A DNA stretch of 64,000 bases from Argopecten irradians. Taxonomy: Eukaryota; Mollusca; Bivalvia; Pectinida; Pectinidae. Below, in pieces: positions 805 through 61,703 of the stretch (positions within the stretch are counted from its first letter, which is position 1; each line of letters begins with the position of its first letter). The stretch spans positions 28,423,751 through 28,487,750 of the forward strand of contig NC_091141.1 of the NCBI RefSeq assembly GCF_041381155.1. The letters run 5' to 3'. The translations under genes were made by a program, and so were the position numbers. The notes under the pieces are model-generated. The model was not told where the DNA came from, did not search any database, and saw nothing but the letters and a program-made list of their open reading frames with translations.

Positions 805-3800
805 AGTAATGATGCAGAGTCATGTGACTTCACCATCCATGAAATATTCCGTTTCGGGGAGCTCCTGATGTCTGGAGATCATAGATGTGTGGAAACATTA
901 TTTATCGCAGATGAAACTCTGGTCCATACAAGTCCTGCATTTAAACATCTCCAGCAAAACAGGAGTCTCTTTGTCAACAGGTAACTTAATATAGTTATGC
1001 ATCATTTAGCTCCAGATTTATAAATTATATTTGATTAACTTTAAGGGGACTTAACAATCAAACTACAGTAAAGCAATGTTTTTTCACGGCTACTAAATTT
1101 CACAATTTCTTTTTCAAAACTAGTTCAAAAGGATGAAAGGTGAAAAACCTTTATGATGTCTCAAGTTGGCAGAAACTGCTTGGAGAAATGCCATTGTTGT
1201 AATGCCTGTTTTTTTATAGGAACTGCCTGGAGAAATACCTTTGTGATGTCTGTTGTTTATTTGTTGGTAGAAACTGCTTTGAGAAATACTTTTGTGATGT
1301 CTGTTGTTTATTTGTTGGTAGAAACTGCTTTGAGAAATACATTTGTGATGTCTGTTGTTTATTTTTGGTGGTAGAACCGGCCTACAGAAATACCTTCATG
1401 ATGCCTGTTGTTTATTTGGTGGTAGAAACTGCTTTGAGAAATACCTTTGTGATGTCTGTTGTTTTATTTGGTGGTAGAACTGGCCTACAGAAATACCTTC
1501 ATGATGCCTGTTGTTATCCCCCGCCCAACGAAGTTGGCGGGGGATATACAATTGGGTTCCGTCCGTCCGTCCGTCCGTCCGTCGGTACGAATGGTTTCCG
1601 GAGCATAACTCTAAAACCAGTAGAGATATTTCCACGAAACTTCATACACACATTGGTCTTATGGTCTAGTAGTGCCTTTTGCTATTTTTAGGTTTTCATT
1701 TTTTGCATTTTTCCGTAACCATGGAAACATTGCTGAAAATATCATATTTTTGTACCAGGTTCGTTTCCGGAGCATAACTCTAAAACCAGAAGAGATATTT
1801 CCACGAAACTTCATAGACACATTGGTCTTATGGTCTAGTAGTGCCTTTTGCTATTTTAAGGTTTTCACTTTTTGTACTTTTTTCTGTAACCATGGAAACA
1901 TTGCTGAAAATGGCAGATTTTTGTGTAAGAATCGTTTCCGGAGCACAACTCTAAAACCAGCAGAGATATTTCCATGAAACTTCATAGACACATTGTTCTT
2001 ATGGTCTAGTAGTGCCTTTTGCTATTTTTAGGTTTTCATTTTTTGCATTTTTTCCGTAACCATGGAAACATTGCTGAAAATATCATATTTTTGTAGCAGG
2101 TTCATTTCCGGAGCATAACTCTAAAACCAGCAGAGATATTTCCACGAAACTTCATAGACACATTCTTTTTATGGTCTAGTAGTACCTTTTGCTATTTTTA
2201 GGTTTTCATTTTTTGCACTTTTTCCGTTACCATGGAAACATTGCTGAAAATATCATGGTAAATGGTAAATGTTACTTTGCAAAACTCCACCCATCTTTGT
2301 GTATATAGTCTAATATAAATGTCAAGGCTGTATACCTGATTCAACAATTGCAGCCCCGCTCTACTTGAATTATACTCCATCTTTCTTTAGCTCAACTTCC
2401 TTTTTCCTGTTTTTTTTTCATACACATAAGTCTCCACAATCAAACTTACTTCAGCTTTGATATCTCCATTGGCGGGGGATCTGAATGACTATGTCCTTGT
2501 TTTTTATGGTATGAAATACTGACAATATGAAGAAATACCGTTGTGATGTTTGTTGTTTATTTGTTGGTAGAAACTGCCTGGAGAAATACCTTTATGATGT
2601 CTGTTGTTTATTTGTTGGTAGAAAACTGCCTAGAGAAATACCTTCGTGATGTCTGTTGTTTATTTGTTGGTAGAAACTGCCTGGAGAAATACCGTTGTGA
2701 TGTTTGTTGTTTATTTGTTGGTAGAAACTGCGTGGAGAAATAACTTCATGATGTCTGTTGTTTATTTGTTGGTAGAAACTGCCTGGAGAAATACCGTTGT
2801 GATGTCTGTTGTTTATTTTTTGGTAGAAACTGTCTGGAGAAATACCTTTATGATGTCTGTTGTTTATTTGTTGGTAGAAACTGCCTGGAGAAATACCGTT
2901 GTGATGTTTGTTGTTTATTTGTTGGTAGAAACTGCGTGAAGAAATACCTTTATGATGTCTGTTGTTTATTTGTTGGTAGAAACGGCCTAGAGAAATACCT
3001 TTGTGATGTCTGTTGTTTATTTGTTGTGGTAGAAACTGCCTGGAGAAATACCGTTGTGATGTTTGTTGTTTATTTGTTGGTAGAAACTGTTTGCAGATAT
3101 ATCTTTGTGATGTCTGTTGTTTATTGTTGGTAGAAACTGCTTAGAGAAATACCTTTGTGATGTCTGTTGTTTATTTGTTGGTAGGAACTGTCTGGAGAAA
3201 TACCTTCGTGATGCCTGTGGAAGCAAAGGAACTAAGCAACTATATCGCTGGACAGATGGACATTCTCCAACAGAAGTTCTCACTGACCGCATGTCTAAAC
3301 TCGCTTATATCATCATCCGTCTTCTTCAAAATGCAGTGTAGGTGTTATACCAAGTAAATTGTTGTTAATTATAATTTTCAAATGATTACACTATTTGTAC
3401 AGAGGACATTGTTTAAATTTCACCCATCATAATCAGATGGTGCACTATACAAATTGCCTATGATCATGGACAATTCTTGTTTGCGCTAGTTCTCAGAAGG
3501 TACTGAAGATTTTTTTCTCAAATTTCATATATAGGCTTCCCATATGGACCCTAGTTAACGTTGTGCATGTTGTACTTGAGAGTGATTAAACAACAACATG
3601 GCCATCAGGCAGCCATCTTGAATTTTATTAAGTTGAAGATCTTTACCGTAATATCGCAGAAAGTCATGAAGGGATTATTCTTAACTTTCTGATGCAAGCT
3701 TCCCTTGTGCCCTGGTTATACATATTGCATTTTTGACTGTCATGATCTGAAGAGGCAACCGACAGACAGTCATCTTGGATTTGGATTGTTGAAGTTTGTT

Positions 3801-4907
3801 ATCGCTATTTATCAATATCATGATTGATTGAACAAAAGATGGAACGATATGAGGTTTGATAGATTAGTTTACTTCTACTATTTTTCAGATACTAAGTAGT
3901 ACTGATTAATTTGTTCTTAAACTCTATGCTGGTTCCCATTGATACCACTACATTTTGAAACTTGTCAGCCAACAAGATGGACAATAGGTTTAATTCGGAT
4001 AGCTTATTCATAACAATTGTTACCATACTTGATTACCAAACTATATTTCCTCATGCTCACAGGAAAGGGGGAAAGGGGCAAAGAGAGAAAGGTTAATATT
4101 TTATTTCACTGATAAATAATGTTTAATGGCCATGATAGACACTATAAAGATCGTTCTCGGATATCTGGTTTTCTATGCATTGCACAAATTAAGACTGCTG
4201 CATTTGGTTTCAGGGACATCATTAAAGGAGGGCCAATCATTGTATATAGGCTAGATGAATCAACAGAAAAGGAAATGCTGATGAAGATTAGACACGGCGC
4301 ATTAACCATTGGAGAAACGTTGGACGAAATCAACAGGTAAGAGGCTGTATTTCTTATAAAGATAATACATTGTAAATTAATCATTGGACGTAGGACAAAA
4401 GTAGCAAATAAGAAGTTATATTTCTTGTAAAGCTTCAATGAGGCATATCAAACATTTTGCAAACTTAGGACAAAATTAAAATGGTAAAGGTTTGTATTCA
4501 GTATATTAATATATAGATTTGATGAGACACATTAAATGTTGGGGAAATATGGGACGAAATCAACAGATATGATATAGTTCTCATTGTGAGTTCATCAAGG
4601 CACAACCATTTGTGAAACATGGAATGAAACTGACTAGTAAGAACGGAAACATAGAAAAAGTATATAAAAATGCATTTCGACTTTATTATTCAATGTGCAT
4701 GCAATTACTTGCCTTTTCGCCAGGGTGGCTACATCATTACTGGTTTTGCAAATTTCAATTTATGTCTTTGTCTTGAATTTGTTTTATGCTTGTTGCAGGC
4801 TCCTGTCAATTATAAATGACAATAAAGCAGATGTACCAGACAATACTAAGGATGTGACCGCTTTCCTAGAAAACTGGCTTATTCAACTCAGAAGGGAACA
4901 ATTCTGA
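805..4907 (+). CDS. RlaP-like predicted nucleotidyltransferase, C-terminal four exons (5' end outside window)
   Basis: Coding exons are 805-980, 3185-3337, 4214-4336 and 4799-4907 (TGA followed by a second TGA), all with GT..AG introns and compatible phases. Together they give 186 residues. The order of conserved blocks is that of the RlaP / predicted nucleotidyltransferase family (Pfam PF10127, DNA polymerase beta superfamily): HEIFRFGELLMSGDHRCVET, then SPAFKHLQQNRSLFVNR, then the helical MSKLAYIIIRLLQ, then a KIRHGALTIGETLDEI block. Family members are predicted to transfer nucleotides to RNA or small molecules; the animal role is unknown to me. The N-terminal catalytic GS..D.D region must lie in exons left of the window. 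The acceptor at 804 is CTGTTTCTAG. The exon 2 donor is placed at 3338 because that phase joins exon 3 in frame. Introns 1 and 3 hold tandem copies of the adjacent exon boundaries. A likely poly(A) signal is at 4992. Confidence 0.75.
1146..1516 (+). repeat. 51-bp minisatellite made of a splice acceptor plus exon start, left block
   Basis: About seven units, each holding a TTGTTGGTAG-type acceptor followed by AACTGCCTGGAGAAATACC and a TGTGATGTCTGTTGTTTAT tail. The downstream exon at 3185 begins with the same bases after the same acceptor. The unit is 51 bp, a multiple of three, and in the exon frame encodes NCLEKYLCDVCCLFVGR. One unit (acceptor AG at 1218-1219) has a better polypyrimidine tract, CTGTTTTTTTATAG, than the real exon. 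Later units are diverged (GGCCTACAGAAATACC). Confidence 0.9.
1517..2480. mobile_element. Non-autonomous DNA element with ATCCCCCGCC terminal inverted repeats and a 172-bp tandem core
   Basis: The left end ATCCCCCGCC is immediately followed by the inverse GTTGGCGGGGGAT, and the right end is ATTGGCGGGGGAT, so the termini are inverted repeats. Inside are a CCGTCCGTCCGTCCGTCCG run (about 1560-1582) and about four head-to-tail units of roughly 172 bp starting TTTCCGGAGCATAACTCTAA (at about 1588, 1768, 1936 and 2106). It carries no coding capacity. It sits inside the 51-bp minisatellite and splits it into two blocks, so it probably inserted after the array expanded. No clear target-site duplication was found. 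Confidence 0.7.
2524..3184 (+). repeat. 51-bp minisatellite made of a splice acceptor plus exon start, right block
   Basis: About thirteen 51-bp units lead directly into the authentic exon at 3185. Each contains GTTGGTAG then AACTGCCTGGAGAAATACC. The exon itself differs after the GATGCCTGT point (GGAAGCAAAGG), showing where exon sequence continues beyond the duplicated segment. Most units keep the exon reading frame open; a few have small indels, for example TTTGTTGTGGTAG at about 3020. Confidence 0.93.
3341..4213. other. Intron 2 of the nucleotidyltransferase gene, with decayed repeat DNA
   Basis: No exon is seen. From about 3590 to 3980 there are loosely repeated pieces of the kind CAGCCATCTTGAATTT / CAGTCATCTTGGATTT, each followed by TTGAAG. 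They resemble decayed monomers of the dispersed CCATCTTGGATTT repeat seen in cleaner form at 37.7-39.1 kb. Confidence 0.4.
4337..4645 (+). repeat. Decayed tandem copies of exon end plus splice donor in intron 3
   Basis: Exon 3 ends GGACGAAATCAACAG followed by GTAAGAGG. Degenerate copies follow at spacings of about 70-85 bp. The clearest, at about 4511-4570, has GATGAGACACATTAAATGTT, then GGGACGAAATCAACAG, then ATATG where the donor should be. Others are around 4375-4412 (ATTAATCATTGGACGTAGGA), 4430-4490 and 4590-4640 (AACATGGAATGAAACTGACT). The similarity is imperfect but the order of blocks is kept. This looks like an old version of the splice-junction arrays elsewhere in the window. Confidence 0.65.
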
Positions 4908-8212: not shown

Positions 8213-8488
8213 GTACATTCGGAATTCTAGAGCTACGCATATTTTACAAGCTAGTTATAAATTTGTAGTACATTCGGAACTCTACACATATTGATGTTTT
8301 CGTTGCTCGACCAGAAACATGAATGGACCGAGGACATGTTCAGTCTCGTTTCCGACGAGTCAGCTATTCGTGTTCGTTCTGATGTGACGTCACCAGGCCG
8401 GGCTGTATATATATGAGCCGGCCAATACACAGCTTCACACAACAACTGTTGAACACAGAAGCACTTCGATATCAACCATCATTTAAAG
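8213..8488 (+). promoter_or_regulatory. Promoter and 5'UTR exon of vWA gene copy A (CRE + TATA)
   Basis: A palindromic CRE/ATF site TGACGTCA is at 8385-8392 and a TATA box TATATATAT at 8406-8414, so transcription should begin near 8437. A non-coding first exon then runs to 8488, where TTTAAAG is followed by GTAAGG. About 100 bp upstream are two copies of a motif starting GTACATTCGGAA (8213 and 8268). The 150-bp block from the second motif to the TATA box is almost unchanged in copies B and C, while flanking DNA is not, which points to function. Confidence 0.75.
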
Positions 8489-9115
8489 GTAAGGATCGAT
8501 TGCTTTAGTATAGCATTATATATAAAGTATAAAAAAAGTCTTAAGTATGAAGAAGAAGTATACTATACATGTATGCAATAAGTTAGCTAGATCTGAAATA
8601 TTCTCTCTCTCTCTCTCTGTCTATATGATAGTATTACATTTTTTCATTATTGAACGATTCTTTGTTTACTTTTTATGTTCTGAAATTAATATTATTTATT
8701 TATTTATTTATAAATGAAACTTATAGTACCTACAACAGAGTTCCGTTGAATGTAATTTAAAGAATGAAACTAAATATTCATATGCCGCATCTCGGCGTAT
8801 TGCATTTAGAAATCCACGGGTTTAGCTGTTCCATTTGAAACTCTGAAGAGCATCATAGTTTCTTGAGATTTTTGGGTCGTCGTTTACTATTATTAATAAA
8901 GCTTCATATTACCATTCGTTAACATATTTTCTGATAGATTTTTCATCTGATTTTTTTATAACTGGAAACATATCAAAAGTACTTGGATTATATGTCAAAT
9001 ATAAACTTAAAACAATTATTCCTAAATATGTACATACATGAACTTCATTACATATACAGGGTGAAACGTTGATGCAAATTTGAGTAAAATATCTTTGTTT
9101 ATTTTAGAAACAAAA

Positions 9116-11083: not shown

Positions 11084-11113
11084 GTTTGTAATAAGACAGT
11101 TATCATTTCATAC

Positions 11114-11119
11114 AATAAA
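11114..11119 (+). promoter_or_regulatory. Probable poly(A) signal, vWA copy A
   Basis: AATAAA lies 30 bp after the stop codon; the equivalent site exists in copies B and C. Confidence 0.65.
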
Positions 11120-11379
11120 GAAACATTTTGAGTTGTACACCTACGGTTCTAATTGGCACATTATTGTTAATACTGAGTTTGTTTTGTTTTACTGAAGTCG
11201 TTTTATTGAATGGTGCAATGTAAATACAAGGATAGCTTATATTTATTATTTTAATATTGATATACAAAATAATAGTACATGTTATTGATTATTGTTACAA
11301 ATGTATTGTATTTGATAAAATAAAACTGATAAAAGTAGCAATTTTCCATTATTATTATTTAATATATGTATAATAGCTT

Positions 11380-12985: not shown

Positions 12986-13149
12986 CGCTGGCCGAAAGAG
13001 ATGAAGGTGTTTAAAATCTGCATGTAATTGGCTACCAGAGACTTAATTTATTTGCCTACTACTTAACGTTATGTTAGAACCCGTAGAAAAAAAATCGTAA
13101 TTATTTGGATTAACTGGTATGACCCATAACTGGGCGAACATTGTGACAT

Positions 13150-14790: not shown

Positions 14791-14796
14791 TTTGTA

Positions 14797-17606: not shown

Positions 17607-17636
17607 GTTTGTGACAAGACAGTTATTATTTCATAC

Positions 17637-17646
17637 AATAAATAAA
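17637..17646 (+). promoter_or_regulatory. Probable poly(A) signal, vWA copy B
   Basis: Two overlapping AATAAA hexamers (17637 and 17641) lie about 30 bp after the stop. Confidence 0.65.
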
Positions 17647-19495: not shown

Positions 19496-19599
19496 TTGGC
19501 CGAACTATTGGTCACCAGAGACTTAATCTATGCCTACCATACTGTTATTTCAGAACCTGCAGAAAAAAGGTCATACTATTCTTTAAAGTTGTATGACCC

Positions 19600-25056: not shown

Positions 25057-25086
25057 CTTTACGATAAGATGTTTATCATTTCATAC

Positions 25087-40192: not shown

Positions 40193-43100
40193 TCAGTGAC
40201 CGAGACTGTTTAGGTAGGCAGAGTATCCAGCTTGCTTGTACTCCAAAGCTGCCCCAAGAGGATCCGCTGCCCCAGTAATACCACGACCCACAATGACTAC
40301 ATCTGCACCCTTCTCCGAGACCGCTATCTGTGGGGTCACATACTGCTGTCCAAGGGAGTCTCCTCCCATTTGGATCTTGACACCTGAGTTAAACAAAGTA
40401 ATAAACATTAAATGATGATACCTGGTTAATGAAATTCAATGTTCTTTCATTATAAGAAATAAATCTATAAAGATTGGAATAGACTACATCTGAGGATGGT
40501 CAGCTAAAAAGGCAAAGAGACACAACACGTGCACAAATACTGAAATCTACTTTCTATTTCTATGCAATTTACAATCCATGTAAGTTCAAGAAAGTTCACA
40601 TCATTTATATTCCAAGGAATTTCAATTCAATTTTCAATTTATTCGTGGAAGTTGATTTTGTGAACTTGTTTTGCTAAATTTGATAGCAATAAAAGAAAGT
40701 TGGTTTACCCTATACCACAGCCTCCAAAAACACACAGATGTTCACACAACACTTCGCTTACATTTTACCTCGGTGGCTGTCGTTCAATATTATGTTCTTG
40801 GTTAATTGTTAAAATAACATTAAGCTTAATCAACTAACTAACAAAGGTCAGTACTAATGTTTTCCTAAATTTCATTTGATTCCTTGCTGGAAATGTTTGA
40901 ATACAGTTTGATGAAATGAACAATTATCTTCCATCTTTTTGTAATTCCACAAAAACTTCTGATGCATACCTGGAGTCATGTGAACAAGGTCATGGTCAGC
41001 TGACAGGCGAGACTGAGAAATATAGCCAATCACAAAGTCCTTATTGGCTTCGGCCATCTTTACTGCACCTGTAACAAAATGTAATTCTACATCAACATGT
41101 GGATAACAATGGCTTACTTTGTTTGATGTTTCATCAACTTCAATGATGAATGGCCTCACCTTACCTTTTAAGTATTCTCGTTACCTCTAAAAGAAGCTGC
41201 ATAAGTTTGGAGTAACATGTTGGTAGGTTGGTAGAGACAAATTTTCGAGTACCCTATTCTAATCGCCTTTAGTGCATGTTAGGCATTGACCTTCATCAGT
41301 TTTGCGTATACGAAAACAATATGTATTCTATTTTTGAATTCTACCAAATCACTGAACAAAATTCACCAAAATTTTGCAGAAACCTTCTAATCAAAACTGT
41401 AGTGTTACTAATGTTATACATGTATACTGGTATGTGGTCCCTAATATGGTAGAATCACGTACTGACTTAAAAGACAGAAGTCAAGGTCAATTGCAAAAAT
41501 TGTGAATTTTGTGAATCATGATCTTGTTGTCTTTGGGTTTTCCTCAGAAAAACAGTTAACTTCACAATCACTGACTGACTGACAGGCGGTATATATATAT
41601 ATAGAGCCAAGTCTCATGCTCACAAGCGCATGTGTACTTGTTCAATGTTGGAGCAAACATGGTTATTGTAGCATACACAATACAAAATGCATGTGCACTT
41701 CTTTTTTGATTGACAGCTGATCTGTCAATAAAAGCTTATGAAGAAAAACGATATTTTGTACATTACTTGTTCATTCCTAGAAAATAACTCAAACTTGTTT
41801 GAACTAAAGAGTATTAAACAGTGTAAGCAGATTGTATTGGACATCATTATTGACAAATGAGTCCTGACTGAACTCCAGGATTCTATCATATGATTGAAGC
41901 TAAAATGTTCTTTCGGATATCAGCTGTCCATTCATTGGTGATTTTTTTCCCAAAACAAACTGACAATAATTAAGCAGATTTTCTTGTATATAATCAGGAA
42001 ATTGAGAGGGAGTTCAATATTACTGAACATAAACAAGGAATTGATGAATAACAGAGCACTTGGCTTGGACAAGTATATCTTAGATAAGTATAAAGTTATT
42101 AAATATCTTTTAAGGGAGTACCACTGTGGTAGCAATTCTGTAGTAATAATTACTGATACCCACCTTTAGTATAGTCGCCAGTAGCTAGATTCCCTGACGA
42201 GCTCATTTCTGCAACTATCAAACATCCACGACCCAGGGGCTTGCCAACCTGTAGCAAATACATAATTAAAATCAAATACTGCAACAGGAGAGGAGAAAAT
42301 GTAACAGCTAGACTGAGGTCAAGGTTCGAGACCCAAGAAAACTAGCTAGCCGGATGTTCTATAGGTTGTTTTACCCTGTCATCAATGAATGACCTAGATC
42401 AACTCACTGTTGTCTTTGACCTCCCCCCCATATATACCTCCATTGCTATGCTGAGTTATTAAAAGGATCTTAATGTTCTAATGGGAAAACCTAACCCCTG
42501 TCAGATAACTGTTGATTCTTGAAAGAACAAGACAGTTTGCATGATCATAAAAGTATCATTGGGAAAACCTACCTCTGCCAGAGCACTGTTACATGTAATT
42601 CTTGCATGAACATGATAGTTTACATGATCATGAAAATTCCATTGGGAAGACCTACTTCTGTCAGAGCACTGGTAATTCTTGAAAGGACATGAAAGTTCCA
42701 TTTGGGAAACCTACCTCTGCCAGAGCACTAACGATGCCTGAGCCAGGAACAGGGTGAGCATTTGTGATGTGAGCCCAACTGGATATCTTGTACATGCCTC
42801 CCTCATATTGTGTATGTACAGTCTTTCCAATGTCACCAAACTTCCTGAAAATACCAAAAACGACCTCAATTCATTACAGTCTCATAAATATAGAATCTTG
42901 TAATTATTAATTAAATGAATCAGTTTTCATTTCATATGAGATGTGAGTAATTTTATGAGTCTAAGAAGATTTATTGGTGAGCAAAAATTAAAACTTAGAT
43001 TTTCTGCCTTATATTGCTTATGCCAGGTATTGGTATATGTTGGTACTCAAAACTGATTTTTCATGATATCAACTCGCATAGTTCGAACTCACGTTTTTTT

Positions 43101-46100: not shown

Positions 46101-49100
46101 ATTGTTCAAAAGATAACAAGAGGCCCATGGGCCTTAATGGTCATCTGACTAATGGCACAAAACAACACATTCTCAGTATACAATAGTGGCCAACAATTTA
46201 GGCAATACAACAGACCCCTTATTTGAAGCTGCAAGTTTCCAAAATATTTCATGACTTTGACCATAAAAGTACATAAAGGTCATTCACTTGAACAAACTAG
46301 GTAGATCTTTATCCTAGTATGCTACGGGCCCAATATCACTACTCAAGGCCTATTAGTTATTCACAAGTTGTTTAAAGATTTTAGCCTGTTTGACCCCTGT
46401 GACCTTGAATGAAGGTCAAGGTCGTTTATTTAAACAAACTTGGTAGCCCTGCATGCCACAGGCCCAATATGAGTACCCTGGGACTTTTGGTTTTTGAGAA
46501 GAAGTCGTTTAAAGATTTTAGCCTATTTGACTCCTGTGACCTTGAATGAAGGTCAAGATCCTTTATTTGAACAAGTTTGATAGCCCTTCATCCAAGCATG
46601 CCGCAGGCCAAATATGAGTAGCCTGGGCCTTTTGTCCCAGCATGCCACAGGACCATTATCAGGTCTCTAGGCCTCTTAGTTATACACAAGAAGTCGATTA
46701 AAGAATTTAGCCTATTTGACCCCTGTGACCTTGAATAAAAGTCAAGGTCTTTCATTTTAACAAACTTGGTAACTCTTCATCTCATAATGCCACAGGCACA
46801 ATCTCAAGTCTCTAGACTTTTTAACTATTCACAAGAAGTTGTTTAAAGATTTTAGCCTATTTGACCCCTGTGACCTTGGATGAAGGTCAAGGTCATTCAC
46901 TTGAACAGACTTGGTACTCATTCATTCCAGCATGCTGCAGGCCCAATATGAGTTCCCTGGGCATTTGGGTTCTTTGAAGAAGTCGTTCAAAGATTTTAGC
47001 CTATTTGACCCCTTTGACCTTGAATGAAGGAGGTCCTTCATTTTAATAAATTTGATAGCCCTTCATCCAGCATGCTACAGGCCAAATATCAGTACCCTGG
47101 GCCTTTCGGTTATTGGAAAGTGTTTGAATGAGAATTTAGCACAGCGCACACGACGGACGACGCATGTTGACAATAGGTCAGATGACCTAAAAATGGACAG
47201 ACAGATGGATGGGTGGAAGGATGCACAGATTGACGACCTGATTACTATTAGAGCACCTGCATCTCGCGTATGGGGCTGTACATATCAATATACCTTGACA
47301 GTGTGTTGTTATACTGTCCCCACTCCATTGACAATTTATACCTGTACAGTTTAATCCCCTTCCTCTCTAGAGCAGCTTTCCCTCCTTGTTCACGGTCCAA
47401 AAGTACTATGGCATTTGTTACTTGAATCTTCTCATTTTGCAATGACTGCAAAAAGAAATGATACTTTCTTCAATTTGAAATCTTAACAATTCTTCTGTAA
47501 GATTGTAATAGATTGATAGTATTAATTTTGGTATTTTATAACAATTTGAAATTTTGGATTTGAAGATTTCAGAAAATAACAAAATGCACATTCAAAATTA
47601 TCTCGGTGAAAACAGTAAATTCTGTAATTCTCTAACAGTATACAGCTGTTGACTGGGGTTGAGGGCAACAGATGATTTGTTGAACCCGAAGACAAACTGT
47701 TGCCCGAGGCCGTATAGGAGTATAACAATAAATTTTGTTACCCCTATAAAATAGTTCCTATATAAACTCTATTGCCAAAAATGCCAATAAATGAACTATT
47801 CCGTCGAGCGGTCCAAAGAACTGTTAAAATTGACTGTTAAAATGTGCTGTTGGACCGGAGTGACATCACACCTACAATTCGTGACGTCAATGCATTGTTT
47901 TGAGTCAATGGGTATAACAAAACATCGACTGGGTTTTCGGGCAACAGATGATTTGTTGGACCCTCAAACAAACTGTTTGTCCCTCGGCCTTCGGCCTTGG
48001 GCAACAGTCTGTTTCGGGTTCAAGAATATCATCTGTTGCCCCTCAACCCAGTCAACAAACTGTATACTGTAATTGGTATATAGATTTGCAACAACGAAGC
48101 ACAATCATCAAGTAGCTGTCACGAAAATGCTAGAGAAAATATAAGATTACCATATATGTTATTACAGGTAAATAGATTTTTGTACATAGGACTTACGGGT
48201 TACATTGCAAATTATGTTTTACATTACACTAAATTACTATTGAATATTAAATGATCATAACAATGCCCAGAACATTGTTTTACACAATATAGTGGCAGGT
48301 AAATACATTGCTTGTCTCACAGACAGAACTATCGTACCATTGGTGACCACATCCTACACTACATGTATCATGTTACATACCTCAGCTGTCTCACATACAG
48401 AACTAATATATACATACCTCAGCTGTCTCACAGACAGAACTATCATGCTACATACCTCAGCTGTCTCACAGACAGAACTATCATGTTACATACCTCAGCT
48501 GTTCTCACAGACAGAACTATCATGTTACATAGCTCAGCTGTCTCACAGACAAAACTATCATGATATATACTTCAGCTGTCACACAGACAGAACTATCATG
48601 TTACATACCTCAGCTGTCTCGCAGACAGAACTATCATGTTATATACCTCAGCTGTCTCACAGACAAAACTATCATGTTTATATACCTCAGCTGTCTCACA
48701 GACAGAACTATCATGTTATATACCTCAGCTGTCTCACAGACAAAACTATCATGTTATATACCTCAGCTGTCTCACAGACAGAACTATCATGTTATATACC
48801 TCAGCTGTCTCACAGACAGAACTATCATGTTATATACCTCAGCTGTCACACAGACAGAACTATCATGTTATATACCTCAGCTGTCTCACAGACAGATACT
48901 ACCTCATATATACATACCTCAGCTGTCTCACAGACAGAACTAATATATACATACCTCAGCTGTCTCACAGACAGAACTATCATGTTATATACCTCAGCTG
49001 TCTCACAGACAGAACTATCATGTTATATACCTCAGCTGTCTCACAGACAGAACTATCATGTTATATACCTCAGCTGTCACAGACAGACACTCAGTGAACG

Positions 49101-52100
49101 AAAATCATGTTATATACCTCAGCTGTCTCACAGACAGAACTATCATGTTATAAACCTCAGCTGTCACACAGACTAAACTATCATGTTATATACCTCAGCT
49201 GTCACACAGACAGAACTATCATGTTATAAACCTCAGCTGTCACACAGACTAAACTATCATGTAACATACCTCAGCTGTCTCACAGACAGAACTATGGTGT
49301 CTACATCATGTTACATACCTCAGCTGTCTCACAGACAGAACTACCACTGGTGACTACATCATGTTACATACCTCAGCTGTCTCATAGACAAAACTATCAT
49401 GTTATATACTTCAGCTGTCACACAGACAGAACTATCATGTTATAATTACATACCTCAGCTGTCTCGCAGACAGAACTATCATGTTATATACCTCAGCTGT
49501 CTCACAGACAAAACTATCATGTTTATATACCTCAGCTGTCTCACAGACAGAACTATCATGTTATATACCTCAGCTGTCTCACAGACAAAACTATCATGTT
49601 ACATACCTCAGCTGTCTCACGGACAGAACTATCATGTTATATACCTCAGCTGTCTCACAGACAGAACTATCATGTTATATACCTCAGCTGTCTCACAGAC
49701 AGAACTATCATGTTATATACCTCACTGTCACACAGACAGAACTATCTGTACTCACTCGACAGAACTAATATTTACATACCTCAGCTGTCTCACAGACAGA
49801 ACTAATATATACATACCTCAGCTGTCTCACAGACAGAACTATCATGTTATATACCTCAGCTGTCTCACAGACAGAACTATCATGTTATATACCTCAGCTG
49901 TCTCACAGACAGAACTATCATGTTATATACCTCAGCTGTCACACAGACAGAACTATCATGTTATATACCTCAGCTGTCTCACAGACTAAACTATCATGTT
50001 ATATACCTCAGCTGTCACACAGACAGAACTATCATGTTACATACCTCAGCTGTCTCACAGACAGAACTATCATGTTATAAACCTCAGCTGTCATACAGAC
50101 AAAACTATCATGTTATATACTTCAGCTGTCTCACAGACAGAACTATCATGTTATATACCTCAGCTGTCATACAGACAGAACTATCATGTTATAAACCTCA
50201 GCTGTCATACAGACAGAACTATCATGTTATATACCTCAGCTGTCATACAGACAGAACTATCATGTTATAAACCTCAGCTGTCATACAGACAGAACTATCA
50301 TGTTATATACCTCAGCTGTCTCACAGACAGAACTATCATGTTATAAACCTCAGCTGTCATACAGACAGAACTATCATGTTATATACCTCAGCTGTCATAC
50401 AGACAGAACTATCATGTTATAATACCTCAGCTGTCATACAGACAGAACTATCATGTTATAAACCTCAGCTGTCATACAGACAGAACTATCATGTTATATA
50501 CTTCAGCTGTCTCACAGACAGAACTATCATGTTATATACCTCAGCTGTCACACAGACTAAACTTACATCATGTTACATACCTCAGCTGTCTCACAGACAG
50601 AACTATCATGTTATAAACCTCAGCTGTCATACAGACAGAACTATCATGTTATAAACCTCAGCTGTCATACAGACAGAACTATCATGTTATATACCTCAGC
50701 TGTCATACGGACAGAACTATCATGTTATATACCTCAGCTGTCTCACAGACAGAACTATCATGTTATATACCTCAGCTGTCTCACAGACAGAACTACCACT
50801 GGTGACTACATCCTACATCATGTTACATACCTCAGCTGTCTCACAGACAGAACTACCACTGGTGTCTACATCATGTTACATACCTCAGCTGTCTCACAGA
50901 CAGAACTACCACTGGTGACTACATCATGTTACATACCTCAGCTGTCTCACAGACAGAACTACCACTGGTGACTACATCATGTTACATACCTCAGCTGTCT
51001 CACAGACAGAACTACCACTGGTGACTACATCATGTTACATACCTCAGCTGTCTCACAGACAGAACTACCACTGGTGACTACATCACGTTACATACCTCAG
51101 CTGTCTCACAGACAGAACTACCACTGGTGACTACATCATGTTACATACCTCAGCTGTCTCACAGACAGAACTACCACTGGTGACTACATCCTCCACTATC
51201 ATGTTACATACCTCAGTTGTCTCACAGACAGAACTACCACTGGTGACTACATCCTCCACTATCATGTTACATACCTCAGTTGTCTCACAGACAGAACTAC
51301 CACTGGTGACTACATCATGTTACATACCTCAGCTGTCTCACAGACAGAACTACCACTGGTGACTACATCCTCCACTATCATGTTACATACCTCAGTTGTC
51401 TCACAGACAGAACTACCACTGGTGACTACATCATGTTACATACCTCAGCTGTCTCACAGACAGAACTACCACTGGTGACTACATCACGTTACATACCTCA
51501 GCTGTCTCACAGACAGAACTACCACTGGTGACTACATCATGTTACATACCTCAGCTGTCTCACAGACAGAACTACCACTGGTGACTACATCCTCCACTAT
51601 CATGTTACATACCTCAGTTGTCTCACAGACAGAACTACCACTGGTGTCTACATCATGTTACATACCTCAGCTGTCTCACAGACAGAACTACCACTGGTGA
51701 CTACATCCTCCACTATCATGTTACATACCTCAGTTGTCTCACAGACAGAACTACCACTGGTGACTACATCCTCCACTATCATGTTACATACCTCAGTTGT
51801 CTCACAGACAGAACTACCACTGGTGACTACATCCTCCACTATCATGTTACATACCTCAGCTGTCTCACAGACAGAACTACCACTGGTGACTACATCCTCC
51901 ACTATCATGTTACATACCTCAGCTGTCTCACAGACAGAACTACCACTGGTGACTACATCATGTTACATACCTCAGCTGTCTCACAGACAGAACTACCACT
52001 GGTGACTACATCCTCCACTATCATGTTACATACCTCAGCTGTCTCACAGACAGAACTACCACTGGTGTCTACATCATGTTACATACCTCAGCTGTCTCAC

Positions 52101-55100
52101 AGACAGAACTACCACTGGTGACTACATCATGTTACATACCTCAGCTGTCTCACAGACAGAACTACCACTGGTGACTACATCCTCCACTATCATGTTACAT
52201 ACCTCAGCTGTCTCACAGACAGAACTACCACTGGTGTCTACATCATGTTACATACCTCAGCTGTCTCACAGACAGAACTACCACTGGTGACTACATCATG
52301 TTACATACCTTAGTTGTCTCACAGACAGAACTACCACTGGTGACTACATCATGTTACATACCTCAGTTGTCTCACAGACAGAACTACCACTGGTGACTAC
52401 ATCATGTTACATACCTCAGTTGTCTCACAGACAGAACTACCACTGGTGACTACATCATGTTACATACCTCAGTTGTCTCACAGACAGAACTACCACTGGT
52501 GACTACATCACGTTACATACCTCAGCTGTCTCACAGACAGAACTACCACTGGTGACTACATCCTGTACTATCATGTTACATATATCAGCTGTCACACATA
52601 CAGAACTACCACTGGTGTCTACATCATGTTACATACCTCAGCTGTCTCACAGACAGAACTACCACTGGTGACTACATCCTCCACTATCATGTTACATACC
52701 TCAGCTGTCTCACAGACAGAACTACCACTGGTGTCTACATCATGTTACATACCTCAGCTGTCTCACAGACAGAACTACCACTGGTGTCTACATCATGTTA
52801 CATACCTCAGCTGTCTCACAGACAGAACTACCACTGGTGACTACATCCTCTACTATCATGTTACATACCTCAGCTGTCTCGTGGACAGAACTACCACTGG
52901 TGACCACATCTTCTACTATCAGGCAGACGTCACCCTCCTCATAACGACCCTCTATCATTCGTCGTGTTCCATAGTCTTTAGCTTCTTTTCGGCGAATCAA
53001 CATTGGATAATTGTGTTGAACACATATGCACTGCAAAATCAACCAGTTGGTGTGATTATTAAACTTAAAATATGATTTACAGAAAGAAAAAAAAATTGTT
53101 GTAAAAAACGTTCAAAGCAATGTATTTAAAAGTATAAAATTTGTTCAATCAGAACAGGTCAATTTCAAAATATTTCATTCAATCAATAATCAGAAAATGA
53201 TTTTACCTGCAAAAGAGTGAATTTTGTAATATGTTGGTTTGCAAAAAATAAAAAAAAAAAAAAATACAAGAATGCATTAGTAATTCAATTGATTTCAGTT
53301 AATTTCTATAATCAATTCAAACCAGAGAAAGACATTTTTTGTAATAAACACAATAATTTTGTGTCAGTTAATTTTGCTGATAATTGATAATGAAGATTAA
53401 TATCAAATCAATTTTAAGCTGGCTGGTGGAACTATTTGTGCTGGAACGGTTAGTAGAAATGCCAACCAGTTAACCGGATCGGACTAACCGAACCGTAACC
53501 AGATAACCGCCGCTGCTTAAGTAACATTACAGTCATACATTGATGCTATAAATCTGTCATACTTCGTCTGGATTCCATAACAATCACTCACATCTTTCAG
53601 GAAACAATCACTTGGAACAAAAAATTGCTTGAAATTAGATTTATTTTGTTTGTTTTTAATAAAACCATGACAGGGAACACTTAGTGTAGCTATAGGTAAA
53701 GCTGTGTAGGACACATGAACACTTACTGTAGCTATAGGTAAAGCTGTGTAGGGTACACATGAACACTTACTGTAGCTATAGGTAAAGCTGTGTAGGACAC
53801 ATGAACACTTACTGTAGCTATAGGTAAAGCTGTGTAGGGTACACATGAACACTTACTGTAGCTATAGGTAAAGCTGTGTAGGACACATGAACACTTACTG
53901 TAGCTATAGGTAAAGCTATGTAGGGTACACATGAACACTTACTGTAGCTATAGGTAAAGCTGTGTAGGACACATGAACACTTACTGTAGCTATAGGTAAA
54001 GCTATGTAGGGTACAGTAACACATGAACACTTACTGTAGCTATAGGTAAAGCTGTGTAGGACACATGAACACTTACTGCAGCTATAGGTAAAGCTGTGTA
54101 GGACACACATGAACACTTACTGTAGCTATAGGTAAAGCTGTGTAGGACACATGAACACTTACTGTAGCTATAGGTAAAGCTATGTAGGACACATGAACAC
54201 TTACTGTAGCTATAGGTAAAGCTATGTAGGGTACACATGAACACTTACTGTAGCTATAGGTAAAGCTGTGTAGGACACATGAACACTTACTGTAGCTATA
54301 GGTAAAGCTGTGTAGGGTACACATGAACACTTACTGTAGCTATAGGTAAAGCTGTGTAGGACACATGAACACTTACTGTAGCTATAGGTAAAGCTGTGTA
54401 GGACACACATGAACACTTACTGTAGCTATAGGTAAAGCTGTGTAGGGTACACATGAACACTTACTGTAGCTATAGGTAAAGCTGTGTATGGCAACATGAA
54501 CACTTACTGTAGCTATAGGTAAAGCTGTGTAGGGTACACATGAACACTTACTGTAGCTATAGGTAAAGCTGTGTAGGGCACACATGAACACTTACTGTAG
54601 CTATAGGTAAAGCTGTGTAGGACACACATGAACACTTACTGTAGCTATAGGTAAAGCTGTGTAGGACACACATGAACACTTACTGTAGCTATAGGTAAAG
54701 CTGTGTAGGGTACACATGAACACTTACTGTAGCTATAGGTAAAGCTGTGTAGGGTACACATTAACACTTACTGTAACTATAGGTAAAGCTGTATAGGACA
54801 CATGAACATTTACTGTAGCTATAGGTAAAGCTGTGTAGGACACATGAACACTTACTGTAGCTATAGGTAAAGCTATGTAGGGACACATGAACACTTACTG
54901 TAGCTATAGGTAAAGCTATGTAGGGTACACATGCACACTTACTGTAGCTATAGGTAAAGCTGTGTAGGACACACATGAACACTTACTGTAGCTATAGGTA
55001 AAGCTGTGTAGGGTACACATGAACACTTACTGTAGCTATAGGTAAAGCTGTGTAGGGTACACATGAACACTTACTGTAGCTATAGGTAAAGCTGTGTAGG

Positions 55101-58100
55101 ACACACATGAACACTTACTGTAGCTATAGGTAAAGCTGTGTAGGACACATGAACACTTACTGTAGCTATAGGTAAAGCTGTGTAGGACACACATGCACAC
55201 TTACTGTAGCTATAGGTAAAGCTGTATAGGACACACATGAACACTTACTGTAGCTATAGGTAAAGCTGTGTAGGACACACATGAACACTTACTGTAGCTA
55301 TAGGTAAAGCTGTGTAGGACACATGAACACTTACTGTAGCTATAGGTAAAGCTGTGTAGGACACACATGAACACTTACTGTAGCTATAGGTAAAGCTGTG
55401 TAGGACACATGGACACTTACTGTAGCTATAGGTAAAGCTGTGTAGGACACATGAACACTTACTGTAGCTATAGGTAAAGCTGTGTAGGGTACACATGAAC
55501 ACTTACTGTAGCTATAGGTAAAGCTGTGTAGGACACACATGAACACTTACTGTAGCTATAGGTAAAGCTGTGTAGGACACACATGAACACTTACTGTAGC
55601 TATAGGTAAAGCTGTGTAGGACACATGAACACTTACTGTAGCTATAGGTAAAGCTGTGTAGGACACACATGAACACTTACTGTAGCTATAGGTAAAGCTG
55701 TATAGGACACACATGAACACTTACTGTAGCTATAGGTAAAGCTGTGTAGGACACATGAACACTTACTGTAGCTATAGGTAAAGCTGTGTAGGACACACAT
55801 GAACACTTACTGTAGCTATAGGTAAAGCTGTGTAGGGTACACATGAACACTTACTGTAGCTATAGGTAAAGCTGTGTAGGGTACACATGAACACTTACTG
55901 TAGCTATAGGTAAAGCTGTGTAGGACACACATGAACACTTACTGTAGCTATAGGTAAAGCTATGTAGGGACACATGAACACTTACTGTAGCTATAGGTAA
56001 AGCTGTGTAGGGCACACATGAACACTTACTGTAGCTATAGGTAAAGCTGTGTAGGACACACATGAACACTTACTGTAGCTATAGGTAAAGCTGTGTAGGG
56101 TACCTTGAACACTTACTGTAGCTATAGGTAAAGCTGTGTAGGACACACATGAACACTTACTGTAGCTATAGGTAAAGCTGTGTAGGGTACACATGAACAC
56201 TTACTGTAGCTATAGGTAAAGCTATGTAGGGTACATGAACACTTACTGTAGCTATAGGTAAAGCTGTGTAGGGCACACATGAACACTTACTGTAGCTATA
56301 GGTAAAGCTGTGAAGGACACATGAACACTTACTGTAGCTATAGGTAAAGCTATGTAGGACACACATGGACACTTACTGTAGCTATAGGTAAAGCTGTGTA
56401 GGACACATGAACACTTACTGTAGCTATAGGTAAAGCTGTGTAGGGCACATGAACACTTACGGTAGCTATAGCTAAAGCTGTGTAGGACACACATGAACAC
56501 TTACTGTAGCTATAGGTAAAGCTATGTAGGGTACATGAACACTTACTGTAGCTATAGGTAAAGCTGTGTAGGACACATGGACACTTACTGTAGCTATAGG
56601 TAAAGCTGTGAAGGACACATGAACACTTACTGTAGCTATGAACACTTACTGTAGCTATAGGTAAAGCTGTGTAGGGTACATGAACACTTACTGTAGCTAT
56701 AGGTAAAGCTGTGTAGGACACATGAACACTTACTGTAGCTATAGGTAAAGCTGTGTAGGGTACACATGAATACTTACTGTAGCTATAGGTAAAGCTATGT
56801 AGGGTACACATGCACACTTACTGTAGCTATAGGTAAAGCTGTGTAGGACACACATGAACACTTACTGTAGCTATAGGTAAAGCTTTGTAGGGTACATGAA
56901 CACTTACTGTAGCTATAGGTAAAGCTGTGTAGGGTACATGAACACTTGCTGTAGCTATAGGTAAAGCTGTGTAGGACACACATGAACACTTGCTGTAGCT
57001 ATAGGTAAAGCTGTGTAGGGTACACATTAGTAACACTTACTGTAGCTATAGGTAAAGCTGTGTAGGACACATGAACACTTACTGTAGCTATAGGTAAAGC
57101 TGTGTAGGGTACACATGAACACTTACAGTAGCTATAGGTAAAGCTGTGTAGGGTACATGCACACTTACTGTAGCTATAGGTAAAGCTGTATAGGACACAC
57201 ATGAACACTTACTGTAGCTATAGGTAAAGCTGTGTAGGGTACACATGAACACTTACTGTAGCTATAGGTAAAGCTGTGTAGGGTACATGAACACTTACAG
57301 TAGCTATAGGTAAAGCTGTGTAGGGTACATGAACACTTACTGTAGCTATAGGTAAAGCTGTGTAGGACACACATGAACACTTGCTGTAGCTATAGGTAAA
57401 GCTGTGTAGGACACACATGAACAGTTACTGTAGCTATAGGTAAAGCTGTGTAGGGTACACATGAACACTTACAGTAGCTATAGGTAAAGCTGTGTAGGGT
57501 ATATGAACACTTGCTGTAGCTATAGGTAAAGCTGTGTAGGGTACACATGAACACTTGCTGTAGCTATAGGTAAAGCTGTGTAGGACACACATGAACACTT
57601 ACTGTAGCTATAGGTAAAGCTGTGTAGGGTACACATGAATATTTACTGTAGCAATAAATAGGTAAAGCTGTGTAGGGTACACATGAACACTTACTGTAGC
57701 TACAGGTAAAGCTGTGTAGGGTACACATGGACATGAACACTTACAGTAGCTATAGGTAAAGCTGTGTAGGACACACATGAACACTTACTGTAGCTATAGG
57801 TAAAGCTGTGTAGGACACACATGAACACTTACAGTAGCTATAGGTAAAGCTGTGTAGGGTACATGAACACTTACTGTAGCTATAGGTAAAGCTGTGTAGG
57901 ACACACATGAACACTTGCTGTAGCTATAGGTAAAGCTGTGTAGGACACACATGAACACTTACAGTAGCTATAGGTAAAGCTGTGTAGGGTACATGAACAC
58001 TTACTGTAGCTATAGGTAAAGCTGTGTAGGACACACATGAACACTTGCTGTAACTATAGGTAAAGCTGTGTAGGACACACATGAACACTTACTGTAGCTA

Positions 58101-61100
58101 TAGGTAAAGCTGTGTAGGGTACACATGAACACTTACAGTAGCTATAGGTAAAGCTGTGTAGGGTACATGAACACTTACTGTAGCTATAGGTAAAGCTGTG
58201 TAGGACACACATGAACACTTGCTGTAGCTATAGGTAAAGCTGTGTAGGGTACATGAACACTTGCTGTAGCTATAGGTAAAGCTGTGTAGGACACATGAAC
58301 ACTTACTGTAACTATAGGTAAAGCTGTATAGGACACACATGAACACTTACTGTAGCTACAGGTAAAGCTGTGTAGGACACACATGAACACTTACTGTAGC
58401 TATAGGTAAAGCTGTGTAGGACACATGTACACTTACTGTAGCTATAGGTAAAGCTGTGTAGGGTACATGAACACTTGCTGTAGCTATAGGTAAAGCTGTG
58501 TAGGGTACACATGAACACTTGCTGTAGCTATAGGTAAAGCTGTGTAGGACACATGTACACTTACTGTAGCTATAGGTAAAGCTGTGTAGGGTACATGAAC
58601 ACTTACTGTAGCTATAGGTAAAGCTGTGTAGGGTACATGAACGCTTACTGTAGCTACAGGTAAAGCTGTGTAGGGTACATGAACACTTACTGTAGCTATA
58701 GGTAAAGCTGTGTAGGACACACATGAACACTTACTGTAGCTATAGGTAAAGCTGTGTAGGGTACACATGAACACTTGCTGTAGCTATAGGTAAAGCTGTG
58801 TAGGGTACACATGAACACTTGCTGTAGCTATAGGTAAAGCTGTGTAGGGTACACATGAACAATTACTGTAGCTATAGGTAAAGCTATATAGGGTACACAT
58901 GAACACTTACTTTAGCTATAGGTAAAGCTGTGTAGGGTACATGAACACTTACAGTAGCTATAGGTAAAGCTGTGTAGGGTACATGAACACTTGCTGTAGC
59001 TATAGGTAAAGCTGTGTAGGGTACATGAACACTTACTGTAGCTATAGGTAAAGCTGTGTAGGGTACACATGAACACTTACTGTAGCTATAGGTAAAGCTG
59101 TGTAGGGACACATGAACACTTACTGTAGCTATAGGTAAAGCTGTGTAGGGTACACATGAACACTTACTGTAGCTATAGGTAAAGCTGTGTAGGACACATG
59201 TACACTTACTGTAGCTATAGGTAAAGCGGTGTAGGGTACACATGAACACTTACTGTAGCTATAGGTAAAGCTGTGTAGGGTACCTTGAACACTTACTGTA
59301 GCTATAGGTAAAGCTGTGTAGGACACACATGAACACTTACTGTAGCTATAGGTAAAGCTGTGTAGGGTACACATGAACACTTACTGTAGCTATAGGTAAA
59401 GCTGTGTAGGACACACATGAACACTTACTGTAGCTATAGGTAAAGCTGTGTAGGACACACATGAACACTTACTGTAGCTATAGGTAAAGCTGTGTAGGGT
59501 ACACATGAACACTTACTGTAGCTATAGGTAAAGCTGTGTAGGACACACATGAACACTTACTGTAGCTATAGGTAAAGCTGTGTAGGACACACATGAACAC
59601 TTACTGTAGCTATAGGTAAAGCTGTGAAGGACACATGAACACTTACTGTAGCTATAGGTAAAGCTGTGTAGGGTACACATGAACACTTACTGTAGCTATA
59701 GGTAAAGCTATGTAGGGTACATGAACACTTACTGTAGCTATAGGTAAAGCTGTGTAGGACACACATGAACACTTACTGTAGCTATAGGTAAAGCTGTGTA
59801 AGGCACACATGAACACGTACTGTAGCTATAGGTAAAGCTGTGTAGGGTACACATGAACACTTACTGTAGCTATAGGTAAAGCTGTGTAGGGCACACATGT
59901 ACATGAACACTTACTGTAGCTATAGGTAAAGCTATGTAGGACACACATGAACACTTACTGTAGCTATAGGTAAAGCTGTGTAGGGTACATGAACACTTAC
60001 TGTAGCTATAGGTAAAGCTGTGTAGGGTACACATGAACACTTACTGTAGCTATAGGTAAAGCTGTGTAGGGTACACATGAACACTTACTGTAGCTATAGG
60101 TAAAGCTGTGTAGGACACACATGAACACTTACTGTAGCTATAGGTAAAGCTGTGTAGGGTACACATGAACACTTACTGTAGCTATAGGTAAAGCTGTGTA
60201 GGACACACATGAACACTTACTGTAGCTATAGGTAAAGCTGTGTATGGCAACATGAACACTTACTGTAGCTATAGGTAAAGCTGTGTAGGGTACACATGAA
60301 CACTTACTGTAACTATAGGTAAAGCTGTGTAGGACACATGAACACTTACTGTAGCTATAGGTAAAGCTGTGTAGGGTACATGAACACTTACTGTAGCTAT
60401 AGGTAAAGCTGTGTAGGGTACACATGAACACTTAATGTAGCTATAGGTAAAGCTGTGTAGGACACATGGACACTTACTGTAGCTATAGGTAAAGCTGTGA
60501 AGGACACATGGACACTTACTGTAACTATAGGTAAAGCTGTGTAGGACACACATGAACACTTACTGTAGCTATAGGTAAAGCTGTGTAGGGTACATGAACA
60601 CTTACTGTAGCTATAGGTTAAGCTGTGTAGGACACATGAACACTTACTGTAGCTATAGGTAAAGCTGTGTAGGACACATGAACACTTACTGTAGCTATAG
60701 GTAAAGCTGTGTAGGGTACACATGAACACTTACTGTAGCTATAGGTAAAGCTGTGTAGGGTACACATGAACACTTACTGTAGCTATAGGTAAAGCTGTGT
60801 AGGCAACATGAACACTTACTGTAGCTATAGGTAAAGCTGTGTAGGGTACATGAACACTTACTGTAGCTATAGGTAAAGCTGTGTAGGACACATGAACACT
60901 TACTGTAGCTATAGGTAAAGCTGTGTAGGGTACACATGAACACTTACTGTAGCTATAGGTAAAGCTGTGTAGGACACACATGAACACTTACTGTAGCTAT
61001 AGGTAAAGCTGTGTAGGGTACACATGAACACTTACTGTAGCTATAGGTAAAGCTGTGTAGGACACATGAACACTTACTGTAGCTATAGGTAAAGCTATGT

Positions 61101-61703
61101 AGGGTACACATGAATACTTACTGTAGCTATAGGTAAAGCTGTGTAGGGTACACATGGACACTTACTGTAGCTATAGGTAAAGCTGTGTATGGCAACATGA
61201 ACACTTAATGTAGCTATAGGTAAAGCTGTGTAGGACACACATGAACACTTACTGTAGCTATAGGTAAAGCTGTGTAGGGTACATGAACACTTACTGTAGC
61301 TATAGGTAAAGTTGTGTAGGGTAAATGAACACTTACTGTAGCTATAGGTAAAGCTGTGTAGGGTACACATGAACACTTACTGTAGCTATAGGTAAAGCTG
61401 TGTAGGACACACATGAACACTTACTGTAGCTATAGGTAAAGCCTGTGTAGGACACATGAACACTTACTGTAGCTATAGGTAAAGCTGTGCAGGGCACATG
61501 AATACTAACTGTAGCTATAGGTAAAGCTGTGTAGGGTACACATTAGTAACACTTACTGTACACATAGCTATAGGTAAAGCTGTGTAGCACACATGAACAC
61601 TTACTGTAGCTATAGGTAAAGCTGTGTAGGGTACACCACATATTGACTTAAACTTGCAACCAGTTCTTTCGATAGTATTCCACATGAGGGCCGCCACCTG
61701 GTT
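40193..61703 (-). CDS. UMPS: Uridine 5'-monophosphate synthase (OPRT + OMP decarboxylase), 5' end outside window
   Basis: UMPS is the bifunctional cytosolic enzyme for the last two steps of de novo pyrimidine synthesis (orotate + PRPP to OMP, then OMP to UMP). Exons in transcript order are 61703-61605, 53030-52869, 47445-47342, 45404-45251, 44615-44484, 44083-43950, 42844-42715, 42248-42164, 41068-40970 and 40383-40193 (TGA). All are GT..AG and phase-compatible, giving 429 residues; about 50 N-terminal residues must lie to the right of the window. The OPRT part shows [26 protein letters not shown] and the PRPP loop [10 protein letters not shown]. The linker contains [12 protein letters not shown]. 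The decarboxylase shows KTHIDML, FEDRKFGDIG (catalytic Lys and Asp), [19 protein letters not shown] and [10 protein letters not shown]. Introns 1 and 2 of the visible part (8.6 and 5.4 kb) are mostly arrays of the preceding exon end plus its donor. Confidence 0.97.
42481..42714 (-). repeat. Decayed tandem copies of UMPS exon end plus splice donor (60-83 bp units)
   Basis: The exon 42844-42715 ends GTGCTCTGGCAGAG followed by GTAGGTTTCCC (minus strand). The plus-strand form AACCTACCTCTGCCAGAGCA recurs at about 42568, AGACCTACTTCTGTCAGAGC at about 42647, and a poorer AACCTAACCCCTGTCAGATA at about 42488. These are separated by similar GAATTCTTGAAAGAACATGA-like stretches. About three copies, two with a usable-looking donor. 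Confidence 0.8.
43191..43894. mobile_element. Mutator-like MITE with 70-bp inverted repeats and 9-bp target duplication (UMPS intron)
   Basis: Both ends begin CAACTTCGCTAGCCAAGGGT (the right one inverted), and the similarity runs about 70 bp to CTTCAGAAC. CGTATGCAC flanks it directly at 43182-43190 and 43895-43903. A 9-bp duplication with long terminal repeats fits the Mutator (MULE) superfamily. It is about 704 bp with no transposase. Confidence 0.85.
44112..44432. mobile_element. MITE family R5, copy 2 (UMPS intron)
   Basis: The left end TTTAAAGGCCCACTACCTTT and the right end AGTGGTGGGCCTTTAAA are inverted repeats; it matches the copy at 35438-35843. Confidence 0.75.
46118..47192 (+). mobile_element. 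CAAGAGGCCC-family element with an approximately 145-bp tandem core (UMPS intron)
   Basis: The left end is CAAGAGGCCCATGGGCCTTA then ATGGTCATCTGAC; the right end is CACGACGGACGACGCATG then AGGTCAGATGACCTAAA. The core has about five monomers carrying TTTAGCCTATTTGACCCCTG, TGACCTTGAATGAAGGTCAA and CATGCCACAGGCCCAATATG. The core sequence is unrelated to that of the 37.5-kb element, although the ends match. Confidence 0.8.
47635..48070. mobile_element. Foldback/MITE element with ACAGTATACAG termini (UMPS intron)
   Basis: The left end ACAGTATACAGCTGTTGACT plus GGGCAACAGATGAT is matched in inverse at the right end by ATCATCTGTTGCCCC ... GTCAACAAACTGTATACTGT. It is about 436 bp, non-coding. Confidence 0.75.
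48300..50760 (-). repeat. UMPS splice-donor minisatellite, distal part (38-bp units)
   Basis: About 60 units of 38 bp. On the minus strand each reads TAGTTCTGTCTGTGAGACAG, then CTGAG, then GTATATAACATGA, that is the last eight codons of the UMPS PRPP-loop exon followed by a GTATAT or GTATGT donor. Unit variants (CACACAG, CATACAG, AAAACTA) occur in runs. A run from about 48571 recurs in the same variant order from about 49410, a higher-order repeat of about 840 bp. Confidence 0.95.
50760..52868 (-). repeat. UMPS splice-donor minisatellite, exon-proximal part (53-64-bp units)
   Basis: About 38 units. These include more exon sequence than the distal units: minus strand GAGGATGTAGTCACCAGTGG, TAGTTCTGTCTGTGAGACAG, CTGAG, then GTATGTAACATGATA. 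The 63-bp form is in frame and encodes the 21-residue unit [20 protein letters not shown] plus M, repeating the PRPP-binding loop. The authentic exon (52869-53030) differs by several substitutions (VHETAE, GTGGTCACC), while array units are homogeneous among themselves. Confidence 0.95.
53040..53680. other. UMPS intron DNA between the two large arrays
   Basis: AT-rich, with a polyA run at about 53249-53264 and an ACCGGATCGGACTAACCGAA stretch near 53475. No exon seen apart from 52869-53030 to its left. Confidence 0.5.
53680..61604 (-). repeat. UMPS splice-donor minisatellite, 42-44-bp units, about 180 copies
   Basis: Nearly 8 kb of head-to-tail units. On the minus strand each reads TACACAGCTTTACCTATAGC, then TACA, then GTAAGTGTTCATGTG and a short variable ACCC or TCC joint. 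The first part is the exact end of the UMPS exon 61703-61605 (YTALPIAT) and the GTAAGT is its donor. Lengths alternate mainly between 42 and 44 bp, so frames shift from unit to unit. Reading on from the exon meets a stop within about three units. Rare units are broken, for example 57650 and 61555. Confidence 0.96.

Follow-up and report, generated by a model that had tools for sequence, protein, structure and literature searches.

The window analysed here, a stretch of 64,000 nucleotides (C8:28423751-28487750) from the 846-Mb assembly of the scallop Argopecten irradians, raises the question of why tandem arrays in two unrelated genes, coding for UMPS and a nucleotidyltransferase, are built from the exon-intron junctions of the very genes that carry them. 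Each unit joins the last bases of one exon to the first bases of the intron that follows, with the reverse order at acceptors, and such units, taken from unrelated exons, are found on seven contigs. Probably these arrays are mirage minisatellites, tandem copies of a gene's own exon-intron boundary that likely arose when a tandem duplication happened by chance to cross a splice junction, were likely tolerated and likely grew by slippage or unequal crossing-over. A preliminary description of the window knew of no named class of this kind, a statement that has to be withdrawn, as mirages are already named in lancelets (PMC3087553; PMC3902484). The class being already known, what is new here is the mollusc host, the size of the arrays and their spread over the genome.

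UMPS is read from the minus strand as a single open frame through exons 2-11, exon 1 being located beyond the window in the stretch L009, and the predicted protein shows 100% identity over 99% with the NCBI Argopecten irradians UMPS-like isoform X2. The largest array (53675..61636, minus strand) originates from exon 2 (61605..61703, defined by open frame and homology, donor GTAAGT) and occupies 7962 bp, almost the whole of the 8574-bp intron. Tandem Repeats Finder (TRF) resolves it into a 44/42-bp unit and additionally into an 86-bp dimer of 44- and 42-bp units. The exon edge ..CTATAGCTACA|GTAAGTGTTC recurs there as a junction 184 times, the true copy counted, with spacing mostly of 42-44 bp; GT is present in 167 of the 184 copies, GTAAGT in at least 159 and an identical nine-base donor in 149, and identity between copies is no lower for distant pairs (0.94 at lag 100) than for neighbours (0.93 at lag 1). 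Exon 3 (52869..53030, minus strand, likewise supported by open frame and homology, donor GTATGT) gives rise to the second array at about 48313..52910 of the same strand, with units mainly of 63, 53 and 38 bp and 97 junction copies in total when the true one is counted, GT being kept in 95 of them. Copies far from the exon are shorter and more distant from the consensus, and by eye the two shorter unit lengths look derived from the longest by internal loss. The copy farthest from the exon, at the edge of the cluster, is unlike the copies next to it and retains a piece of the exon, GATGTGGTCACC, that is missing from the neighbouring 38-bp units. Exon 8 (42715-42844) is accompanied by a short donor mirage at 42515..42714 (minus strand) with three copies by core match, the true one among them and GT in all three, and with a fourth copy discernible by eye at ~42481.

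The nucleotidyltransferase gene is assigned by PF10127, the homology search having returned one relative, Mytilus P0121. The start of its exon at 3185..3337 (plus strand, homologous to Mytilus P0121 and PF10127) matches an acceptor array that consists of a distal part (1146..1515) and a proximal part with a 51-bp unit (2531..3218), both on the plus strand and separated by unrelated sequence (1516..2530) including a 170-bp tandem element at 1594-2256. Both parts together hold 18 AG sites, the true one counted, and all 18 are intact. A decayed donor mirage (4337..4645, plus strand) follows the exon at 4214-4336, with GT in two of about five sites, again counting the true one. Thus the five arrays are found where they had been described, as judged from reading frames, TRF and core counts, and their units indeed abut the exon and span its boundary, four with donors and one with an acceptor.

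The distinctness of these five cases was assessed by taking, for each of 46 junctions from five gene models, the 60 bases around it and aligning them to the intron concerned; 1937 60-mers from parts of the window free of known arrays, matched for target length, served as controls. The five named junctions occupied ranks 1-5 of the 46 (empirical p 0.0018, 0.0018, 0.0018, 0.0044 and 0.0146), and the sixth, with p 0.045, was at the level of chance among 46. For the two weakest arrays of the window, none of 1000 shuffles matched the score (p 0.001 each). Random positions over 164 kb speak against a simple reading of the arrays, because 15-20% of them also score as tandem, and no enrichment of junctions over random 164-kb positions was seen at a score of at least 18 (8 of 72 junctions against 20% of positions). 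This high background arises since long arrays fill much of the 164 kb, and, as they dominate by length, the random-position test was replaced by array-based ones. A tandem location is therefore not rare; the specific feature is a unit that incorporates the edge of the exon itself along with its splice site, and the fair question is how often arrays span junctions compared with their density inside introns.

The preliminary description had left undecided whether the arrays belong to one locus or to the whole genome, and in the sampled stretches they turned up on seven contigs. Repeat-finding in 100 kb of flanking sequence led to an acyl-CoA-synthetase-like (ACSS-like) gene that lies 30-34 kb to the left of the window and was recognised by AMP-binding Pfam matches on exons other than the array-bearing one and, for the latter, by the PDB relative 5gxd (obtained with a query having five wrong leading residues). 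Four boundary duplications are visible there by eye, at the donors of exons E (18 bp exact, copies 32 bp apart), F (about five copies, the most distal covering a larger part of the exon than those further in) and H (23 bp exact, 33 bp apart; L017 9518-9622, C8:28393268-28393372) and at the acceptor of exon I, where the unit is 89 bp long and none of 1000 shuffles was as good. A sample of kinesin genes was drawn from 130 exon matches as 29 stretches containing 76 of them, picked for clustered exons and not for arrays. By eye it contains nine mirages on several contigs, L034 being borderline: acceptor mirages in L028 (C2) and L033 (C8) and donor mirages in L030 (C11), L038 (C1), L039 and L040 (C7), L045 (C3), L048 (C6) and L056 (C8). 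Among eight junctions of a myosin sample (4 of 82 matches) one decayed acceptor mirage was revealed in L057; 90 kb drawn at random on C1, C3 and C13 contained few exons by coding score and were excluded. With the window's five included, the tally amounts to about 19 boundary arrays, and these cases in unrelated genes bear out the proposal of a recurrent process.

Minisatellites as such are common in this genome, arrays of at least 80 bp making up 6.4% of the flanking 100 kb and about ten of them starting 3-60 bp on the intron side of kinesin junctions, which might favour the view that the arrays are ordinary intronic minisatellites merely adjoining an exon; that view is nevertheless hardly credible, since the units hold the last or first bases of the exon itself together with its splice site. 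In kinesin stretches L028, L034, L050 and L054, several arrays were observed to start 3-25 bp past the called junction, devoid of clear exon sequence; they may or may not be old mirages from which the exon part has been lost. Inflation of a simple duplication into repeats during assembly is equally hard to believe: copy numbers are those of the assembly, but units differ at many positions and in length classes, and about 19 loci are involved, several having 2-5 copies that one long read could span.

Most copies in the large arrays keep their splice site, which brings up the alternative that the arrays are functional, for example by offering closely packed U1 binding sites that guard or regulate a long intron. 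The presence of GTAAGT in at least 159 of 184 copies within one intron of a housekeeping gene would agree with it. On the other side, variation at the nine donor positions matches that elsewhere in the unit for the arrays of exons 2 and 3 (p 0.65 and 0.28), so that no selection on extra donors is detected there, and the acceptor array is similarly variable in its intron and exon parts (p 0.44), again giving no signal of constraint; moreover, several arrays are decayed, and unrelated genes carry units of their own. A functional role thus appears very improbable. In the annotated A. irradians UMPS protein exons 2-3 and 3-4 are joined with no copies inserted. Judged by sequence, use of the closest additional site would keep the reading frame and meet no stop in the arrays of exon 2 (48 nt), exon 3 (63 nt) and the acceptor (51 nt), and use of the second would meet a stop in all three. 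An open and in-frame nearest copy was considered as a rule and dropped, the UMPS exon 8 copy lying 59 nt away and the nearest copy of ACSS-like exon F meeting a stop. One codon provides an indication of age: among 96 copies of the UMPS exon 3 unit it reads CGT (Arg) in 2, TGT in 90 and His in none, whereas the exon itself has His and three other scallops have Arg. Since copies hold CGT or TGT and the other scallops Arg, the copying of exon 3 is likely older than the exon's change to His.

Taken together, these data are best accommodated by mirage formation through chance and tolerance. The founder would likely be a chance tandem duplication straddling a splice junction. Its tolerance would likely follow from continued use of the splice site next to the exon, which is predicted to serve as before. 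This reason, already offered in the preliminary description, stands as the best explanation, on a basis that we infer. Expansion would then likely proceed via slippage or unequal crossing-over, and the founder unit may subsequently be shortened by deletion, for which signs are seen by eye in UMPS exon 3 and in ACSS-like exon F. In a genome rich in minisatellites there is no need to regard splice junctions as special targets, and minisatellites sited at junctions seem to persist to much the same extent as intronic ones, perhaps better at donors; in the kinesin sample, spanning loci are nearly as dense as intronic arrays or slightly denser.

The abundance of minisatellites and the shortness of introns may largely explain why arrays are met on junctions, so a preference for junctions needs to be measured against the density of arrays. 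Spanning loci were counted by one automated rule with two distance limits over 224 junctions, 152 of them from kinesin genes and 72 from the C8 stretch. A simple score served to call the kinesin junctions and some are misplaced, that of L040 having been moved by eye (the kinesin count is otherwise 7); several ACSS-like intron edges deviated by a few bases in the count over 16 loci and were partly corrected for later counts. The rule misses L030, UMPS exon 8, the decayed nucleotidyltransferase donor and ACSS-like exon I, all visible by eye, and these were not added since introns were not searched by eye likewise. The kinesin sample gave 8 spanning cases among 152 junctions against 5.1 or 5.7 expected (P 0.15 or 0.21), which is not significant. 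The idea of junctions as special seeds of expansion gains no support from it, this outcome being close to the one that the preliminary description had named as refuting, namely intronic arrays starting elsewhere about as often. In the C8 stretch, chosen because of the finding, 6 of 72 junctions are spanned against 1.6 or 1.8 expected (P 0.005 or 0.010).

Several points weigh against chance and tolerance as a complete account. The pooled count, which includes the stretch that prompted the finding, gives 14 spanning loci per 224 junctions against 6.7 or 7.4 expected (P 0.010 or 0.020), and this about twofold excess means that chance and tolerance may not be the whole story. In the locus-based count 6 of 16 intronic loci span a junction against 2.7 expected (P 0.033). 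The continued use of the original exon-adjacent site is deduced from annotation, and the ACSS-like H case is uncertain because the frame beside the duplication meets a stop, so that exon end, frame or assembly may be at fault. Added to chance, junctions and above all donors might be preferred for tandem duplication or for retention. Besides the excesses just given, this possibility draws on donors being spanned in 11 of 112 cases against 5.0 expected (P 0.014) and acceptors in 3 of 112 against 2.6; on its other side stand the kinesin genes taken alone (donors 6 of 76 against 3.4, P 0.13; acceptors 2 of 76 against 2.1), the choice of the C8 stretch and the split of donors and acceptors compared with intronic arrays (Fisher p 0.19). 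Directly compared, the 11 donors and 3 acceptors differ with a binomial p of 0.057. We consider such a preference unlikely, the remaining hints of it being the weak pooled excess and the donor lean of 11 to 3. Junction-spanning arrays are common, and the data weakly suggest that they are mildly enriched at most and perhaps lean to donors.

Mirages thus extend a little-known class of repeats from lancelets to a mollusc, and their occurrence on seven contigs of one genome makes them countable and comparable. The UMPS intron with 184 junction copies, 149 of which have the same nine-base donor, offers a ready-made test of how one site is chosen by the spliceosome when identical ones compete. Tentatively, and with rather more doubt than confidence, boundary minisatellites may be imagined as a genome-scale feature of bivalve genes affecting about one junction in 16, donors more than acceptors; the spliceosome would take the exon-adjacent donor among up to 184 that are nearly identical, so that donors could multiply freely and acceptors could not, and the placement of minisatellites would be shaped accordingly.

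The window also contains three tandem paralogues of a VWA-like gene (8255-13439, 14783-19897 and 22181-25345), 84-90% alike over 3-5 kb and having a match to the GIY-YIG domain close to the C-terminal end; at the 22 junctions of these paralogues that were tested, no clear mirage was evident (best p 0.045). A 146-bp tandem unit at 37699-39137 is accompanied by a similar 146-bp array in L016 (3999-4846) and by open frames resembling its own on another contig (L020, ~8969-9463), and is likely a dispersed element. Another dispersed element of ~630 bp with a 166-bp inverted repeat (62074-62702) has many copies on many contigs at 75-87% identity (40 of 6985 first-look candidates scored). The Rfam search of the window gave zero matches.

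As for known systems, a minisatellite with multiple splice donor sites has reportedly been described in human IFI6 (6-16/G1P3), judging by the title of a 1995 paper by Turri. Like the scallop arrays, this human minisatellite supplies multiple splice donors, though in a single gene and with two downstream repeat units serving as donors (PMC4526556). Potato RdRp exemplifies a two-copy stage, one tandem genomic duplication across an intron-exon boundary; it created a new intron and the available description mentions no array (PMC4974935). As annotated, the UMPS protein is unchanged at exons 2-4. Human genes in segmental duplications carry minisatellite units at exon-intron boundaries with 27 intron modifications, but these were found via recent paralogues, unlike the approach used here, and affect splicing (PMC2812944). 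Intron repeats of earthworm metallothionein, Lucina globins, seabream myostatin and intronic minisatellites of C. elegans were considered and set aside, not being described as copied splice boundaries in the available parts of the reports. Among the literature matches listed for exon-junction, bivalve and scallop subjects no mollusc case of boundary repeats was recognised, and no mollusc appears by title among papers pairing "mirage" with "minisatellite", most subscription papers lying outside the search. The closest counterparts are the lancelet mirages, minisatellite-like tandem duplications across the exon-intron boundary at its 5' and 3' sides (PMC3087553; PMC3902484), reported in Adh3 and the globins BflGb6 and BflGb9 (PMC3087553), with PGBD5 added and TnC cited later (PMC3902484). 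Lancelet mirages are characterised by concerted evolution within the cluster and by undisturbed regular splicing, and for them RT-PCR and length instability, between alleles or cells, are reported; the scallop arrays are known from the sequence of one assembly. Both are tandem repeats of minisatellite type (TRF and core counts in scallop) with units spanning the boundary at donors and acceptors. AG/GT is kept in many, not all, lancelet copies, and those at cluster edges differ from the rest (PMC3087553; PMC3902484); in scallop many but not all sites are kept (167/184, 95/97, 3/3, 18/18 and 2/5, true copies counted). The most distal copies of UMPS exon 3 and ACSS-like exon F are unlike their neighbours, and identity in the exon 2 array is flat. 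The hosts are a mollusc in one case and cephalochordates in the other, and the arrays reach 184 copies in scallop against 6 and 3 in the two haplotypes of lancelet BflGb6 (PMC3087553; PMC3902484).

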